DNA of 37,430 bases from IMG/VR virus record IMGVR_UViG_3300022934_000064, positions 1 through 37,430 of that record; one strand, 5' to 3'. Position numbers and translations under genes: made by a program. Of this stretch, positions 172 through 14,118 are shown piece after piece. How positions within the stretch are numbered: position 1 is the stretch's first letter; each line of letters begins with the position of its first letter. Source of the stretch: a virus. The notes below the pieces were generated by a model, which worked only from the letters and a program-made list of their open reading frames with translations, did no database searches and had not been told where the DNA came from.

Positions 172-270
172 ATGGGTTGGATAAACGGACTAAGAGATAA
201 AAAAGGAAGATATGTTAAAAAAACTAAAACCAATGCTGTAAAGAACTGGTTTAAGAGGTTATTCAAATGA
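172..270 (+). CDS. Small basic protein (32 aa)
   Basis: Begins MGWINGLRDKKGRYVKK and has a Lys/Arg-rich C-terminus (KNWFKRLFK). A strong AGGGGGAGAG ribosome site sits just upstream. The stop overlaps the next start as ATGA, which implies translational coupling to the holin candidate at 267. There is no membrane segment. The family is not recognised; a short amphipathic basic peptide beside a holin could affect lysis, but that is a guess from context. Confidence 0.6.
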   Translation: MGWINGLRDKKGRYVKKTKTNAVKNWFKRLFK

Positions 271-692
271 TGACACTTCTCACAAATGTTTTACCGATTC
301 TAAGTGGTTTCTTAATGAAACTATTTGCTATGAATCAACAAGCAAAACAAGATGCACAAAAGATGCAACTTGAAGCATTGACTGCAAGGTCTGTTGAGAT
401 AGATAAAGCAAGAGAACAAGCAAACAAAGAAAGTCCTATGGCGGCAATGAATAGAAGGATTATTATTCTTACTATTCTAGGTCTAATTATCTTTACACAG
501 ATAGCACCGCCACTAATGGATATAAATACGACTATTCCAGTTATCGAAAAATCAAATGGTTTTCTTGGTTTTGGTGGTGGCGAAACAACTACATTTATTG
601 AAGTTGCTGGTTTAGTGAAGTATGCAGAAGTCTTTGAGTGGGCATCACTTATTATTGAGTTTTATTTCGGTGCTCAGTTAGCAAAAAGATAA
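267..692 (+). CDS. Putative holin (GTA_holin_3TM-like)
   Basis: A 141-residue membrane protein. Hydrophobic segments lie at about residues 4-22, 66-84 (IIILTILGLIIFTQIAPPL) and 120-137, with a charged amphipathic stretch (residues 23-62, Lys/Gln/Glu-rich) between the first two. The size and three-segment layout resemble the GTA_holin_3TM group of holins that open the inner membrane at the end of infection. It is coupled by overlap to the peptide upstream and by TAATG to the gene downstream. The holin call rests on topology and size; no endolysin is recognised next to it. Confidence 0.55.
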   Translation: MMTLLTNVLPILSGFLMKLFAMNQQAKQDAQKMQLEALTARSVEIDKAREQANKESPMAAMNRRIIILTILGLIIFTQIAPPLMDINTTIPVIEKSNGFLGFGGGETTTFIEVAGLVKYAEVFEWASLIIEFYFGAQLAKR

Positions 693-979: not shown

Positions 980-1159
980 ATGGCAAAAGGTAGTTATTCC
1001 GACGAAGAAGGCAGATATTATCAAGAGCAAGATGTAGGTTTTGAACCTTGTGAAATATGTGAATCACCTAAAATTTGTGCAAAGATGGGTTGTATGAAAG
1101 AAAAAATGCAAGAAAGATTTATGGGTGATAAGTTTGAAGATAGAAAGAAAAACCAGTAA
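980..1159 (+). CDS. Small four-cysteine protein (59 aa), possible metal-binding knuckle
   Basis: Residues 24-38 carry four cysteines in the pattern C-x2-C-x5-C-x4-C (CEICESPKICAKMGC), followed by a charged C-terminus. Preceded by a TAGGAG ribosome site; the stop overlaps the next start as TAATG. The cysteine spacing could bind zinc or an Fe-S cluster, but the family is not recognised. No signal peptide, so a cytoplasmic location is likely. Confidence 0.6.
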   Translation: MAKGSYSDEEGRYYQEQDVGFEPCEICESPKICAKMGCMKEKMQERFMGDKFEDRKKNQ

Positions 1160-1881
1160 TGATTCCAAAAGACCTAGATGATGTTAAAAATGCTATCTGT
1201 GATTTACAGAAAGATATAGAACATCTTAAAACTAGGACTGATGAAAAATTTATTGGTATAGATGGTCGTTTAAAGGGAACAGATATAAGAATATCCGAAC
1301 TCGATAAGTTCCACGATAGAAAATTGTGGCAATTTCTTATGACTGGTTTTGCAGGTCTGATAACATTAATAGCAGTTATGTTGTCTATGGAATCTAAAGC
1401 AGAACCAATAGAAACTATATCAACTACAACACAGACTGTACAGACCAATGGCAACATGACTACTACAGTCAAGCAACCACCACCTAGTGCAATCTCACCA
1501 CAATTTAGTGCAGGTAATGGTAATGATTTATGCACTATAGGTATAGCAGGTGCAGTTCAAACTCAAATACTAGGCATATCAGCAGGTGGCACTATTACAG
1601 AGGAAAACTGTATTAGACTTAAAAATGCCAAGTTCTTATACGATTCTGGTATGAAAGTAGCATCAGTAAGTCTGATGTGTCAAGATAAAAGAGTGTTTGA
1701 TGCTATGATGATGGCAGGAACACCTTGTCCTTATAATGGTCTTATTGGTGATGATGCTAAGATAGGTTGGCAAAATCACGAAGAAAAACCTTATGAAATT
1801 GAACAAGCAGAGAAGATTACTAATGAAGAAGCAATTACTTATAGCGGTATTGGTGCTTTGGGTTGGTTACTCCTACTCTAG
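1159..1881 (+). CDS. Single-span membrane protein with coiled coil and external Cys-containing domain
   Basis: A 240-residue protein. Residues 1-53 are charged and coiled-coil-like, 57-76 form a transmembrane segment (FLMTGFAGLITLIAVMLSM), 80-110 are a Thr/Gln/Pro-rich linker and about 120-205 a compact domain with four cysteines (DLC, ENC, LMC, TPC) that could form disulfides outside the cytoplasm. A second hydrophobic stretch ends the protein (GIGALGWLLLL). I remember similar proteins in marine T4-like phages, unnamed. It opens the secreted/membrane cassette, and the next gene starts inside its 3' end. Function unknown. Confidence 0.7.
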   Translation: MIPKDLDDVKNAICDLQKDIEHLKTRTDEKFIGIDGRLKGTDIRISELDKFHDRKLWQFLMTGFAGLITLIAVMLSMESKAEPIETISTTTQTVQTNGNMTTTVKQPPPSAISPQFSAGNGNDLCTIGIAGAVQTQILGISAGGTITEENCIRLKNAKFLYDSGMKVASVSLMCQDKRVFDAMMMAGTPCPYNGLIGDDAKIGWQNHEEKPYEIEQAEKITNEEAITYSGIGALGWLLLL

Positions 1882-2686
1882 TTATTATTTTGGTTCTTCG
1901 AATAATGCCGTAAATAACGCATATTCTTGGTCTATGGATAATATCCTACCAGATTACTATAATCTCGCTGTAAATGGCGTTTATTACACTTACACACCTA
2001 TAAAGAATAGAGAAGATGCTATGAAGGTGTATGTCCAGAATGAAAATCCTAATGGCGGTTATATTTTTAAAGAAACAGATGATTGGTCTGGTAAATCTGG
2101 TGGTATCCCTATTCGTAAAGTAATAGGTTTAGAATATATACCTAGAGAACTGTGGGGTGATGGTTCTATAGAAATAGAGGGAACTGGTAGTATTAAAGAT
2201 GCACAAGTCGTTTATTCTTATAGATATGAAGATGGATGTGCTACCCCACTAGACAATCCAACTTGTCCTGGTTATTCAGATGCAGTCTTAGATTTATTAC
2301 CAGACACTACGATTACAGAAATATATGATGCTTTAGAAGATGAAAACATTAATCGAGAAGAAACTGAGGTGGATAACAAAAAAGAAGAACAAGAGCAAGA
2401 GGATGTCAAAGAAGATGACAGACTTGAAAGAGCGTTGGCAATTAATGAAGAAACCTTAGAGTTAGGCAACAGCATTGCACAAAATCAAATGTTAGATTCA
2501 ATGAATAATGCAATACAAATGAATAACTATTATATTAAAACAATAGATGGTGGTGTATATAAAGAAACAGTTACTTTAAAAGATAGCAACTTACCCGACA
2601 ATAAATATAGTGCTATCTTAAATCTGTCAGAAGACATAAAACATAATAAAATGGTAAACTTACAATATGAGGGGAATAAATTATGA
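1823..2686 (+). CDS. Secreted protein with C-terminal coiled coil, unknown function
   Basis: I chose the ATG at 1823 (MKKQLLIAVLVLWVGYSYS) because it gives a clean signal peptide and has AGAGAAG upstream; an in-frame ATG at 1793 would add ten residues. The 287-residue product has a signal peptide (1-19), a region rich in Tyr, Asn and Gly, a cysteine pair near 142-150, and a strongly charged Glu/Asp/Lys coiled coil around 175-215. The start lies inside the preceding gene (overlap about 59 nt), and the stop overlaps the next start. Probably exported to the periplasm or cell surface. Not recognised as a named family. Confidence 0.65.
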   Translation: MKKQLLIAVLVLWVGYSYSSYYFGSSNNAVNNAYSWSMDNILPDYYNLAVNGVYYTYTPIKNREDAMKVYVQNENPNGGYIFKETDDWSGKSGGIPIRKVIGLEYIPRELWGDGSIEIEGTGSIKDAQVVYSYRYEDGCATPLDNPTCPGYSDAVLDLLPDTTITEIYDALEDENINREETEVDNKKEEQEQEDVKEDDRLERALAINEETLELGNSIAQNQMLDSMNNAIQMNNYYIKTIDGGVYKETVTLKDSNLPDNKYSAILNLSEDIKHNKMVNLQYEGNKL

Positions 2687-3201
2687 TTAAAGAAATAGCA
2701 CTTATAGGCATAGTTGGAATAATTAGTTATGGTGGAAGTAAATCTGCTTTTGCTTTAGATATTCCTATTACTGCTTCTGTTACTGGTAGTTGTATTATCT
2801 CTACCGAAACAAACGGAACTTATGCACAACCACAAGCATATACATTAACTACAGCACCTGCTAGTGGTGGACAAATGCCAATCACAAGGGTAGATGTAAC
2901 ACTTGCTAGTGCATATAAAGTTAAATTTACTGTTCCAGATTCTTTTAGTTCTAGTCCGCAACTTAATGATGTGGTTACTTTTACTGGTGATACCGAAGTT
3001 AGTGCAGTATCAGATGCAACTGGTATGGCAGATTATGAAACTGATAAAGTTGAAGTTAATGATTATATTGATGAATATGATTTATCTGCAACTGGTTCTA
3101 CTTGGTTTAAACACACATCTGTAGCAAACAATGGTGGTTCTAGGGCATTTCCTAGCGGAAACTATACTGCTTATGTAACGGCAGAATGTATCGCTTTATA
3201 A
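2683..3201 (+). CDS. Secreted pilin-like beta-sandwich protein
   Basis: A 172-residue protein with an N-terminal signal peptide (about 1-24, ending SAFA), then a Thr/Ser-rich beta domain. The mature start (DIPITASVTGSCIIS) and the end (NYTAYVTAECIAL) each hold one cysteine, which could bridge first and last strands. The alternating hydrophobic strands and C-terminal strand resemble fimbrial or spore-coat-U-type subunits. That resemblance is by eye and weak. Next to the chaperone-like gene at 3186, with which it overlaps by 16 nt, it suggests an exported, chaperoned subunit. Confidence 0.6.
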   Translation: MIKEIALIGIVGIISYGGSKSAFALDIPITASVTGSCIISTETNGTYAQPQAYTLTTAPASGGQMPITRVDVTLASAYKVKFTVPDSFSSSPQLNDVVTFTGDTEVSAVSDATGMADYETDKVEVNDYIDEYDLSATGSTWFKHTSVANNGGSRAFPSGNYTAYVTAECIAL

Positions 3202-3542
3202 TTCTTTTTTTGGCATTTGGTGTTCACGCTCATCAAATGTCGCCAACTTATCCAGAATGGGAATCTAGTTATTTAGACGGATTATCTGTCACTAGGGTTC
3301 GAGTATTCAATAAGAGAAAAGATGTCGAATACTACGAAATTGGTGTCTTTGATAAAGATATGAAACCAATCCCTTTTGTGAGTCAGTTCGATTTAAGAGG
3401 AATTAAATATAACAACTATGCAATGTTTGATATTTACATTAATGATAAATACAAAAAAGACGCCGTTTATATTTGTTCTACTTCAATGCTACAAGATATT
3501 AAAGTCGCAGTATCATCTAAAATCTGCTCAAAATTAAAATAA
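3186..3542 (+). CDS. Small secreted chaperone-like (PapD N-domain-like) protein
   Basis: A 118-residue protein with a short signal peptide (MYRFIILFLAFGVHA) and a mature domain of about 100 residues. It starts HQMSPTYPEW and contains LSVTRVRVFNKRKDVEYYEIGV followed by a DxxxxPIPFV motif. The order conserved N-terminal strand, V-R-V-x-N, then Y-x-I-x-V-x-D and P-I resembles the N-terminal Ig domain of periplasmic pilus chaperones, but only one domain is present. Two cysteines lie near the C-terminus. I remember near relatives in marine myoviruses. Partner inferred from position: the pilin-like protein encoded just upstream. Confidence 0.55.
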   Translation: MYRFIILFLAFGVHAHQMSPTYPEWESSYLDGLSVTRVRVFNKRKDVEYYEIGVFDKDMKPIPFVSQFDLRGIKYNNYAMFDIYINDKYKKDAVYICSTSMLQDIKVAVSSKICSKLK

Positions 3543-3976
3543 TGAAGCCGAAATTTTCGATTTTAGCGACATTTCTTATATTAGGAATAGTAGCACAAGG
3601 GGTAAATGCCAACAATTCCTTGAATCTACAGTTACCAACTTCCTACAATAATTATTCTTATGACGAAGTAAGAACATCTGATAACTTCTCTTGTAAGAAC
3701 GCTATATCTGGAACTACAAATTTTGAAATCGGTATGACTGGTATTGTTAATAACGCAGTTAGTCCGTTTGGTAGTGAAGACCCAAACAACCCAACAACCA
3801 AAGATGTAGGTTTATATGCTCGTATTACAATGCCTATTGGCAAAATACCAGAACGAGTGAACTGTAATGCACTTTATAAGTTAGAATTACACAAGAAACG
3901 CTTAGAGGTAATGAAACTAGAGCAAGAACTAAAACGCTTAAAGAATCTAAAGTTTGATAATGGCAAAAAAGATTGA
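3542..3976 (+). CDS. Secreted protein with C-terminal coiled coil
   Basis: A 144-residue protein with a signal peptide (MKPKFSILATFLILGIVAQGVNA), a beta-rich Asn/Tyr/Ser mature part with two cysteines (about residues 51 and 107), and a charged helical tail (LYKLELHKKRLEVMKLEQEL) predicted to form a coiled coil. It begins in TAATG overlap with the chaperone-like gene and ends inside the next gene. The mature part (residues 50-100) reads like beta strands that could line a membrane or trimer. Not recognised by name; similar sequences are remembered from marine phages next to the same neighbours. Confidence 0.6.
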   Translation: MKPKFSILATFLILGIVAQGVNANNSLNLQLPTSYNNYSYDEVRTSDNFSCKNAISGTTNFEIGMTGIVNNAVSPFGSEDPNNPTTKDVGLYARITMPIGKIPERVNCNALYKLELHKKRLEVMKLEQELKRLKNLKFDNGKKD

Positions 3977-4388
3977 TATAGAAGCAACTCAGGAAAAAAT
4001 AGCAAATGCCAAACTCTCGCTTTTTGGTTGGTCTTTTTCTCCAACTCAACTTGGACTTGGTTTCGGTATATTATCTTCTGTTATCGCTACTCTCTATGGT
4101 GGTTTTGTTATGTATCAAAAAGTAGAAGCAGTAGCAGGGTTAGACATAGAAGCGTTTGAAAATAGAATGAACCAGATAGAAGATAAAGCAAAATCTATTG
4201 ACGATAATATTTATGCAATTAAGGAAGATTTAAAGAATGACATTAGAAGAATCAGTGATATTGTTGATGATATTGAGCGAGATACTAAAGACGATTTAAG
4301 AAGTTTTAGACTAGATATAAAAGAGGTAGAGGACAGACTTAATGATAAAATGCAAAAGTTCTTGGATAATCCTCTAAGTGGTAAGTGA
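3960..4388 (+). CDS. Membrane-anchored coiled-coil protein
   Basis: The start at 3960 (MAKKIDIEATQEK) is preferred over an upstream TTG. The 142-residue product has a short cytoplasmic N-terminus, one transmembrane segment near 28-52 (LGLGFGILSSVIATLYGGFV), then a long charged heptad-like helix from about residue 60 to the end (many Asp, Arg, Lys and Ile at a/d spacing). The form recalls spanin-like or scaffolding membrane proteins, but there is no lipobox or paired second gene. The stop overlaps the next start as GTGA. Confidence 0.65.
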   Translation: MAKKIDIEATQEKIANAKLSLFGWSFSPTQLGLGFGILSSVIATLYGGFVMYQKVEAVAGLDIEAFENRMNQIEDKAKSIDDNIYAIKEDLKNDIRRISDIVDDIERDTKDDLRSFRLDIKEVEDRLNDKMQKFLDNPLSGK

Positions 4389-4717
4389 AATACGATAGAG
4401 GTAATTTAGATAATTTTATGAGCGATACTGAATTAGAAATTAAAAAGATAGAAGAAGAATCAATGGAGAACTCTTGGAAAGATGAGTTAATAGTGATTGT
4501 ATTCTCTTTACCAGTCGTTATAAATTTCGTTCTCCCACTATTTAGTGAGATGACTATGAAAGATGCTTGGTTAAATTTAAAAGAAGCACCAGAGTGGTAC
4601 ACAACGATTCTAACTATCTTAGTATTAGTGGTATTTGGTATGAGAAACCTAGTATATAAGTTAGCAGATAAATTATTTGATACTGGCGGCAAAAATGATT
4701 GCCCATGTAAAAAATAA
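4385..4717 (+). CDS. Two-span membrane protein, second holin candidate
   Basis: A GTG start overlapping the previous stop gives 110 residues; an in-frame ATG at 4418 is a possible alternative start. After an acidic N-terminus there are two hydrophobic segments, about residues 36-54 (LIVIVFSLPVVINFVLPLF) and 71-90 (YTTILTILVLVVFGMRNLVY), and a basic, Cys-containing tail (NDCPCKK). Two spans, small size and last place in the late operon fit a holin or antiholin. The evidence is topology only. Confidence 0.55.
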   Translation: MKYDRGNLDNFMSDTELEIKKIEEESMENSWKDELIVIVFSLPVVINFVLPLFSEMTMKDAWLNLKEAPEWYTTILTILVLVVFGMRNLVYKLADKLFDTGGKNDCPCKK

Positions 4718-4890: not shown

Positions 4891-4915
4891 ACCAACAATA
4901 TGAGTGTTGGTTTTA
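4891..4915 (+). terminator. Rho-independent terminator
   Basis: A 7-bp stem ACCAACA / TGTTGGT (4891-4897 and 4905-4911) around a 7-nt loop is followed by TTTATT. It would end the late transcript through the lysis/secretion cassette just before the early promoter at 4919. Confidence 0.7.
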
Positions 4916-5073: not shown

Positions 5074-5481
5074 ATGAGAATATTCGGTTATGAATATAAT
5101 GACGGTGGTCGTTCTAAATACTTTAAAGGTAAAGCAGGAGACTGTGCAGTTAGAGCAATGGCAATAGCGTTAGAACTTGACTATAAAGATTGCTATAACG
5201 AATTAGCAAAACAAAATCAGGTTAGCACGGGACAAAAATCAGCAAGAAACGGAATCTGGAAAAAAGATTTTGAGTTGGTTTTAAAACGCTATGGTTGGGT
5301 CTGGCATAAAGCACCTAAGTTCGATGGACGGAAAGCATACTGCCACGATATGCCGAAAGGTAAAGTAATAGGTAGAATGTCCAGACACTATGTTGCTATC
5401 ATTGATGGAGTTTGTAATGATAGTTGGAATAGTGGTCAAAAAATGGTATATGGTTACTGGGCAAAACCAGATACTAAATAA
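5074..5481 (+). CDS. Predicted papain-like cysteine-protease-fold protein
   Basis: A 135-residue protein, first gene of the early region, with an AAGGAG site. GDCAVRAMAIAL (Cys24 at the start of a helix), RHYVAIIDG (His105 at the start of a strand) and NDSW (Asp116) give the Cys-His-Asp order and spacing of papain-like enzymes. I remember similar uncharacterised proteins with GDCxxRA and HxVAxxDG motifs in other phages. There is no signal peptide, so it acts in the cytoplasm. Early placement favours action on host proteins (shut-off, counter-defence) over cell-wall lysis. Fold and activity are inferred. Confidence 0.5.
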   Translation: MRIFGYEYNDGGRSKYFKGKAGDCAVRAMAIALELDYKDCYNELAKQNQVSTGQKSARNGIWKKDFELVLKRYGWVWHKAPKFDGRKAYCHDMPKGKVIGRMSRHYVAIIDGVCNDSWNSGQKMVYGYWAKPDTK

Positions 5482-12506: not shown

Positions 12507-13253
12507 ATGAATACAATTAAAGTCGATATAAACGAAGTATTTGAAAACGACACTAACCCAAGGGAAATAACATCTGATAAGTTTGCTAAATTAGTAAATA
12601 GCATTAAAGATGCCCCTTGGATGTTAGATATAAGACCAATCGTAGTTAATGACGATATGGTAGTTCTTGGTGGTAATATGCGATTAAAAGCGTGTCGCCA
12701 AGCAGGTCTTAAAGAAGTTCCTATAGTTAAAGTATCTGATTTAACGGAAGAACAACAAAAAGAATTTATTATTAAAGATAATGTTGGTTTCGGTCAATGG
12801 GACTGGGATATTCTAGGTAATGATTGGGACTTAGAGAAGTTGGAAGAGTGGGGTTTAGAATTAGAGATTACTGACCCAGAATACGACTCTTTTGCTGATG
12901 ACAGTTACACTAAGAAAATAGATGCACCAGAATATGAACCATCTGATGAGAAACCAGAACTAACTGACTTAGTAAATACAACTAAATCTAATGAACTTGT
13001 AAATAAGATACAAGCAAGTGAAATAGATAATAACATTAAGAATTTCTTAATAATGGCAGCACAACGACATCTGGAATTTGACTATTCAAAGATTGCAGAT
13101 TTTTATGCACACGCTGAACCAGAAGTCCAAGAACTTATGGAAGAATCAGCATTAATTATTATTGACTTTCAACAAGCGATAGCAGGTGGTTATGTCAAAC
13201 TTAATCAAGAAATCACAGATAGGTATTTAGAAGAATATGGCGATGAAGCATAA
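12507..13253 (+). CDS. ParB-like N-terminal domain protein
   Basis: A 248-residue protein. Residues 1-80 carry the ParB/Srx pattern: VDINEVFENDTNPREIT, 'SIKDAPWMLDIRPIVVNDDM', then VVLGGNMRLKACRQAGL (the GG-N-x-R box) and a 'VPIVKV' strand. The C-terminal part is acidic and helical and lacks a methyltransferase domain, which often follows ParB-like domains in phages. The enzyme class is unclear: phage ParB-like proteins can be DNA-binding, nuclease or nucleotide-modifying. It overlaps the glycosyltransferase-like gene by about 11 nt, so a joint role in DNA modification is possible. Confidence 0.8.
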   Translation: MNTIKVDINEVFENDTNPREITSDKFAKLVNSIKDAPWMLDIRPIVVNDDMVVLGGNMRLKACRQAGLKEVPIVKVSDLTEEQQKEFIIKDNVGFGQWDWDILGNDWDLEKLEEWGLELEITDPEYDSFADDSYTKKIDAPEYEPSDEKPELTDLVNTTKSNELVNKIQASEIDNNIKNFLIMAAQRHLEFDYSKIADFYAHAEPEVQELMEESALIIIDFQQAIAGGYVKLNQEITDRYLEEYGDEA

Positions 13254-14118
13254 AGACTTTGCAATATTTATTCTTACTTACGGAAGAAGTGAAAAGATTT
13301 ATACACTAGAAACTTTAAGAAAGCAGGGATATACTGGAAAGATATATTTAGTTTGCTCTGTAGATGACAAAGAGTTAGAGAACTATAAGAATCTCCATAA
13401 GAATGTCATAGAGTTTGATAAGAATGACTATAAAGGCACTTTTGATATTGGTGATAACTTTAATGACGATAGAGTGGTTGTGTATGCTAGGAATGCCGTT
13501 TTCGACATAGCAGAAGAATTAGGTTATACATACTTTCTAGTTCTTGATGACGACTATACACAGTTCAGATATACAAGAGATGACTTAAACGACTATCTGA
13601 CTAAAGCAAGAAATATTAAAGATTTAGACAAGATTATGGACATCTTGTTAGATTATTACATTCAAACCAATGCTAAAACGCTCTGTATTGCTCAGGGTGG
13701 CGACTTTATTGGTGGAGAAGGTAGTAGGGTATTTAAAAAGAAATTAACCCGTAAAGCAATGAATTTCTTTATCTGTTCTACAGAAAGAAGATTCCAGTTT
13801 ATCGGTAGAATTAATGAAGATGTAAATACCTATGTTAGGTTTGGAACTGTAGGAGATATATTCTTAACTATAGCAGACTTACGACTTGAGCAACTAGATA
13901 CACAAAGCAATTCAGGTGGTCTTACTGAGTTCTATTTAGATGGTGGAACTTATGTGAAATCTTTTTATACTGTTTTGTTTGCACCTTCTAGTGCTAAAAT
14001 AAATTTAATGGGCAATAAAAATATGAGATTGCACCATAGCGTAAAGTGGAACAATACAACACCCGTTCTTTTACCTGAGAAATATCAGAAAAGGAGAGTG
14101 ACAGAATATGACACATAA
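13243..14118 (+). CDS. TAGT-like glycosyltransferase (TET/JBP-associated type)
   Basis: Read from the ATG at 13243 (MKHKDFAIFILTYGRSEK); an ATG at 13237 adds two residues. A GT-A-like fold is indicated by an N-terminal strand with T-Y-G-R, YLVCSVDDKELENY, RVVVYARNAVF (about 77-87) and VLDDDYTQF with the metal-binding DxD (LDDDY at 101-105), then DVNTY and TYVKSFYT. I recognise the family described as TET/JBP-associated glycosyltransferases, which decorate modified bases. No TET/JBP oxygenase is seen in the window, so the substrate is unclear. The gene sits between ParB-like and small terminase. Confidence 0.7.
   Translation: MKHKDFAIFILTYGRSEKIYTLETLRKQGYTGKIYLVCSVDDKELENYKNLHKNVIEFDKNDYKGTFDIGDNFNDDRVVVYARNAVFDIAEELGYTYFLVLDDDYTQFRYTRDDLNDYLTKARNIKDLDKIMDILLDYYIQTNAKTLCIAQGGDFIGGEGSRVFKKKLTRKAMNFFICSTERRFQFIGRINEDVNTYVRFGTVGDIFLTIADLRLEQLDTQSNSGGLTEFYLDGGTYVKSFYTVLFAPSSAKINLMGNKNMRLHHSVKWNNTTPVLLPEKYQKRRVTEYDT

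Follow-up and report, generated by a model that had tools for sequence, protein, structure and literature searches.

The window analysed here is the whole 37,430-base stretch of IMG/VR virus record IMGVR_UViG_3300022934_000064, on whose plus strand seven open reading frames (ORFs) lie between positions 1159 and 4717. Two adjacent genes of this set, B2 and B3, encode exported proteins whose predicted folds resemble a pilus subunit and one domain of its chaperone. An SU10-type major capsid protein (PF17236), a phrog_1216 portal, a terminase and a tail fibre were recognised on the record, and the carrier of the operon is a podovirus-like phage. The ORFs were named A, B1 to B5 and C by their starts (Table 1), and neighbours overlap by 1-59 nucleotides (nt). 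The original prediction, made from the sequence alone, had described seven consecutive overlapping genes forming one operon, and all of these ORFs are indeed present on the plus strand. Ratios of nonsynonymous to synonymous substitution rates (dN/dS), determined against three related loci, were 0.03-0.37 for all seven, and A to C are therefore real genes under purifying selection. PHROG and Pfam scans of the cassette proteins recognised little.

Table 1. Features of the 1159-4717 operon and its surroundings in the window (TM, transmembrane segment; AF2, AlphaFold2).
Feature	Position	Strand	Description	Basis
A	1159..1881	+	Exported; Ser/Thr-rich linker, conserved 4-Cys domain, short hydrophobic C-terminus	
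B1	1823..2686	+	Exported, ~290 aa; N-terminal part beta-rich-looking, acidic linker, conserved C-terminus	
B2	2683..3201	+	Predicted exported pilin-like subunit; Cys37, Cys169	AF2 and Foldseek
B3	3186..3542	+	Predicted exported single-domain PapD-like chaperone; Cys97, Cys114-x-Lys116	AF2, Foldseek, invariant columns
B2/B3 overlap	3186..3201	+	16 nt, B2 end with B3 start	
B4	3542..3976	+	Exported, two Cys; two amphipathic strands, then C-terminal helix (alignment, by eye)	
B5	3960..4388	+	Inner-membrane; one TM, charged coiled coil, C-terminal NPL(A/S)	
C	4385..4717	+	Accessory membrane protein with two TM; phrog_2524	
h0	267..692	+	Small two-TM protein; weak holin-family match, phrog_3427 (E=0.089)	
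Intrinsic-terminator-like hairpin	4891..4911	+	Downstream of operon	

Viral sequences were scanned with B2, B3 and B1 and with alignments of B3 and B4, yielding loci L001-L035 and L046-L193, and at least 592 and at least 591 relatives in IMG/VR were confirmed in the B3 and B4 alignment scans, respectively. After near-identical B4 (or B3) proteins had been dropped, 96 non-redundant viral loci remained. The genes A-B1-B2-B3-B4-B5 lie on one strand and in this fixed order in 78 of them; the remaining 18 are truncated by a contig end, beyond which their missing genes lie. All 96 loci were selected for at least one cassette gene, so the fraction informs on completeness and order of the set and not on its frequency among phages. 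The expected joint conservation in other phages was thus found for the six genes A to B5; the gene at 4385 (C) does not belong to this unit, its main cluster being near the cassette in only 8/96 loci. A T4-type portal (Portal_T4, PF07230) was present in four operon-carrying viral contigs and a phrog_1216 portal in eight. The operon therefore occurs in both myovirus-like and podovirus-like phages, in agreement with the original prediction, which placed parts of it in marine T4-like phages. Among approximately 85,000 bacterial and archaeal species genomes, the B3 scan revealed three loci (L194, L195, L196), all of them in a single Rhodobacteraceae bin (Water_Bin34). This bin also holds nine T4 portal matches, for which reason its loci are probably viral contigs in the bin. 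The operon is phage-borne and almost absent from bacteria.

B3 comprises 118 aa and was modelled with AF2 as a single domain at a predicted local distance difference test score (pLDDT) of 84.6. A Foldseek search of the model against the PDB gave SfaE as best match (8.1e-5), with FaeE, Caf1M and FimC also at the top. Chaperones of chaperone-usher systems made up 10 of the 13 matches with E<=1e-3, domain 1 being best matched, and antibody and other immunoglobulin (Ig) folds appeared lower in the list. Model and structure search thus agree with the proposal that the 3186 product looks like half of PapD. C97 (strand F) and C114 (strand G) are invariant, and K116 is nearly so. In the FGL chaperone Caf1M, the cysteines are C98 and C137. 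FGL chaperones have an F1-G1 disulfide, and a lysine of strand G1 (Caf1M K139) aids subunit binding (PMC4133393). As placed in the model, the C97-C114 pair, a putative disulfide, and K116 correspond to these features. PDB sequence searches with B2, B3 and B4 profiles gave nothing credible, and in BFVD, B3 matched only entries with no name or a generic one. Among these, A0A7R8R9D0 resembles B3 in fold (E 2.1e-4); this protein of Klebsiella phage vB_KvM-Eowyn has 116 aa and is uncharacterised. From its model, B3 folds like a chaperone-usher chaperone and may work alike, and it is not filed here as a member of that family.

The AF2 model of B2 (pLDDT 83.7) contains exactly two cysteines, C37 in the first and C169 in the last strand, which matches the earlier description of one cysteine at each end of a beta sandwich. 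In a Foldseek search of the PDB, entries of chaperone-usher pilus subunits took the first eight places (PapGII pilin domain, CfaB, and FimDHGFC, a type 1 pilus tip complex) and Caf1 and CsuA/B ranked lower, so that the term pilin-like for the 2683 product is upheld by a predicted structure; the best E-value was 1.5e-3, and TM-scores lay around 0.4-0.5. C37 is preceded by 36 residues, which include the signal and a stretch that is part of no strand in the model, and this flexible N-terminus could serve as a donor strand. In 47 of 90 loci, an in-frame B3 start is found at the same place within the 16-nt B2/B3 overlap, which also occurs in those Vibrio phages whose coordinates were read. Since the overlap is common to distant phages, B2 and B3 are probably made together, suggesting translational coupling.

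B2 and B3 accordingly resemble the FGL chaperone-usher pair Caf1M-Caf1 in the domain-1 fold of B3, the pilin-like fold of B2 and the adjacency of the genes, and FGL chaperones in particular in the cysteines of strands F and G and the lysine two residues past the second. They differ from it in that B3, by sequence length and model, has one domain and no second Ig-like one, a short F-G loop (8 residues between F and G, versus about 24 in the F1-G1 loop of FGL chaperones) and a first strand lacking a conserved arginine, and in that the operon is phage-coded, with neither an usher nor profile homology. No match to the usher family PF00577 was found in the window record or in 19 records that include Vibrio isolates; several of the 19 are fragments, but the Vibrio isolates are complete or almost complete; the original prediction had likewise seen no usher. 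CsgG (PF03783) was found in none of the 19 records, and a curli system was rejected for this reason. No description of a phage-coded chaperone-usher system or pilin-chaperone pair was found in the open-access literature, where a subscription paper could be missed. To our knowledge, no phage-coded pair of a chaperone and a pilin-like protein is known from earlier work. By modelled fold, B2-B3 would be akin to chaperone-usher pairs in a setting for which no prior description was found.

The other products are also predicted to be directed to the envelope. A strict export-signal heuristic accepted 68/75 homologues of A, 67/88 of B2, 67/91 of B3 and 80/94 of B4, compared with 75 of 747 flanking genes (10%). 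B1 failed it in most loci; a lenient version was passed by 80/81 B1 homologues and by 216 of the 747 flanking genes. Signals or anchors had been predicted for four of the products. Signal-like N-termini were found in A, B1, B2, B3 and B4, and B5 and C are membrane proteins. Most cassette proteins are without a lipobox. Four cysteines were counted in 70/75 A, two in 61/81 B1 and 91/94 B4, and none in 89/93 B5 homologues; B2 and B3 homologues, too, mostly have two, and these even numbers fit disulfides of oxidised periplasmic proteins. The conserved C-terminus of B1 has the motif GG.Y.E.V.L.D..LPDN...LH..MV..QY. In the window, the signal of A comes after a fused N-terminal coiled coil and TM (1159-1400), XhlA-like by eye, and in most other loci A starts with a plain signal peptide. 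A TolC-like or other outer-membrane pore was considered for B4 and rejected, its single-sequence Pfam matches being weak (OEP 0.065, OMP_b-brl_3 0.064) and the hhalign probability 0.3%. For B5, charges, positive before and negative after the single TM, indicate an N-in/C-out orientation in 91/93 homologues, with a median of 113 residues past the TM. B5 thus shares with phage i-spanins an N-terminal TM followed by an external inner-membrane-anchored coiled coil, and unlike spanins it has no Pfam Rz match and no o-spanin-like lipoprotein nearby. Two roseophage "lysozymes", CRP-810 gp51 (L041, 8216-8638) and CRP-207 gp73 (L044, 3292-3873), match the B5 model; their annotation is probably wrong, and we read them as membrane coiled coils.

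The distribution of the genes points to two modules. A homologues were found in pelagi- and roseophages, whose isolates encode a further exported protein and a B5-like one downstream of the A domain, and B3 was found nowhere in nine pelagi-/roseophage isolate or reference records. A scan for pelagiphage-type A gave 80 loci. In the 41 that extend 3.5 kb or more downstream, B5 was always present and B2, B3 and B4 never; being a short coiled coil, B5 has the least certain distant matches of the six proteins. A tblastn search of phage records found B4 in 181, B3 in 179 and B2 in 179 records, all of Vibrio phages with lengths of about 59 to 129 kb among the matches listed, and A was absent from all six Vibrio phage records tested. 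Because pelagiphages have A and B5 without B2-B4, and Vibrio phages have B2-B3-B4, the six tested being without A, we favour a two-module view: judged by this distribution, B2-B3-B4 look as if inserted between B1 and B5 of the window operon. In Vibrio phage D81 (L280), the gene at 1134-1571 carries the record annotation lipid A acylation protein PagP.

Neighbouring genes were compared by cluster, and the following counts for marine loci are lower bounds given without a random background: of 70 loci with enough downstream sequence, 29 have h0 no more than 3 kb downstream and 16 a lysozyme or Hydrolase_2 cluster no more than 6 kb downstream, and 16/53 loci have tail-fibre clusters up to 8 kb upstream. 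The main cluster of h0 is a frequent cassette neighbour, present in 38/96 loci. In the Vibrio phage pVp-1, genes for a T holin (PF11031) and for an M15 endolysin lie after the B2-B3-B4 trio; in 252E42.2 an endolysin is encoded 2.3 kb beyond it, and in HTVC023P an M15 peptidase comes after the B5-like gene. The gene directly upstream of the trio was phrog_10818, large and of no recognised function, in 5/5 Vibrio phages tested. This gene was rejected as an usher, having no Usher match in Pfam. A small lipoprotein-like gene comes after B4 in Vibrio phages.

As the most probable interpretation, at about 0.42, we propose that the operon is a phage-specific late operon building an exported envelope assembly around an usher-less chaperone-subunit module. 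B3, chaperone-domain-1-like, and B2, pilin-like according to structure prediction, would both be exported via Sec, and B3 would fold and cap B2 by strand donation, as Caf1M does for Caf1, with coupled translation helping the pairing. Without an usher, B2 or the B2-B3 complex would be passed to A, B1 and B4, and anchoring to the inner-membrane coiled coil B5 would give an envelope-spanning structure. Perhaps at the end of infection, this structure might help phage release or make the outer envelope weaker, which is the less certain step. The fixed six-gene order, purifying selection, signals above control, the fold matches, the F-G cysteines with C-x-K, the retained 16-nt overlap, the even cysteine counts, B5 topology and lysis-type neighbours all count in favour. 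A usher-independent pair with its product in or on the envelope is preferred since neither usher nor CsgG was found in the 19 records. A bolder version, in which a new phage export system has a one-domain chaperone permanently complementing a pilin-like subunit, with no usher, as part of an envelope-spanning late machine unique to phages, seems doubtful.

Several results weigh against the proposed envelope assembly. No profile-profile homology was obtained with hhalign to PapD_N (24 sequences; probability 1.2% for B3, though co-linear over 72 columns), SCPU pilins (0.4% for B2) or OEP, and the chaperone/pilin assignment therefore depends on the modelled folds, for which query TM-scores were about 0.4-0.65. 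An o-spanin adjacent to B5 was rejected, as an o-spanin-like lipoprotein gene is nearby in merely 4/73 loci. Lysis genes adjoin the trio in some Vibrio phages only, and in K251 g3 the trio precedes head-tail genes.

Instead of breaking down the envelope, B2-B3, B4 and their partners could block outer-membrane phage receptors, whereby the infected cell would be protected and progeny kept off debris, an effect that the Llp-type exclusion lipoproteins have for phage T5. Known exclusion genes adjoin the receptor-binding gene (PMC9586334). The position of the Vibrio trio directly downstream of phrog_10818 would fit this if phrog_10818 were a receptor-binding protein, and the lipoprotein-like gene after B4 and the upstream tail-fibre clusters point the same way. 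Like Llp, the cassette proteins are small exported phage proteins, and in Vibrio phages the trio lies beside a large, possibly virion-related gene. Unlike Llp, they form a set of six conserved proteins, mostly not lipoproteins, which exceeds the needs of a plug. In addition, phrog_10818 has no known function, and conservation across phage types (mean column identity of B2 64%) is unlike that of receptor-matched blockers and argues somewhat against such a role. Superinfection exclusion or receptor masking is thus unlikely, and envelope breakdown or egress is the more likely function, as B5 topology and the lysis-type neighbours fit it.

Quite improbable is a thin surface fibre, into which B2 would polymerise by donor-strand exchange and which would help infected cells to clump or capture new hosts, as a counterpart of phage-coded curli. 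The pilin-like fold and the flexible stretch before C37 would allow it, and pelagiphages carry phage-coded curli operons (PMC9599517), which like the present operon are a multi-gene export module conserved across marine phage families. However, the proteins and folds differ from curli, the 19 records contain no usher and no CsgG, B3 lacks chaperone domain 2, and the donor strand of B2 is putative. The view that B2 and B3 resemble chaperones and pilins only by generic Ig-fold similarity, being small exported proteins without any chaperone-pilin relation, would agree with the hhalign probabilities, the modest TM-scores and the other Ig folds lower in the B3 list, but it is improbable in view of chaperones and pilins separately heading the two lists, the adjacent, overlapping genes and the FGL-type cysteine pair with C-x-K.

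If this six-gene operon, which carries no annotation, builds an envelope assembly as proposed, many marine phages would construct an exported structure in the host, as at least 592 viral relatives of B3 versus almost none of cellular origin suggest. Cultured Vibrio phages (about 180) with the B2-B3-B4 core make the idea testable.

Further features of the window were noted outside the cassette. Evidence for the terminator-like hairpin downstream of the operon is weak, with 4 such sites found versus 2.1 expected by chance. The window proteins scanned include no recognised endolysin; at 5074-5481, a small phrog_3754 protein has a GDC...H pattern that would fit a lysin or a cysteine protease. A ParB-like/DNA methyltransferase-family protein is encoded beside a beta-glucosyl-HMC-alpha-glucosyltransferase-family protein at 12507-14118, indicating possible DNA modification.

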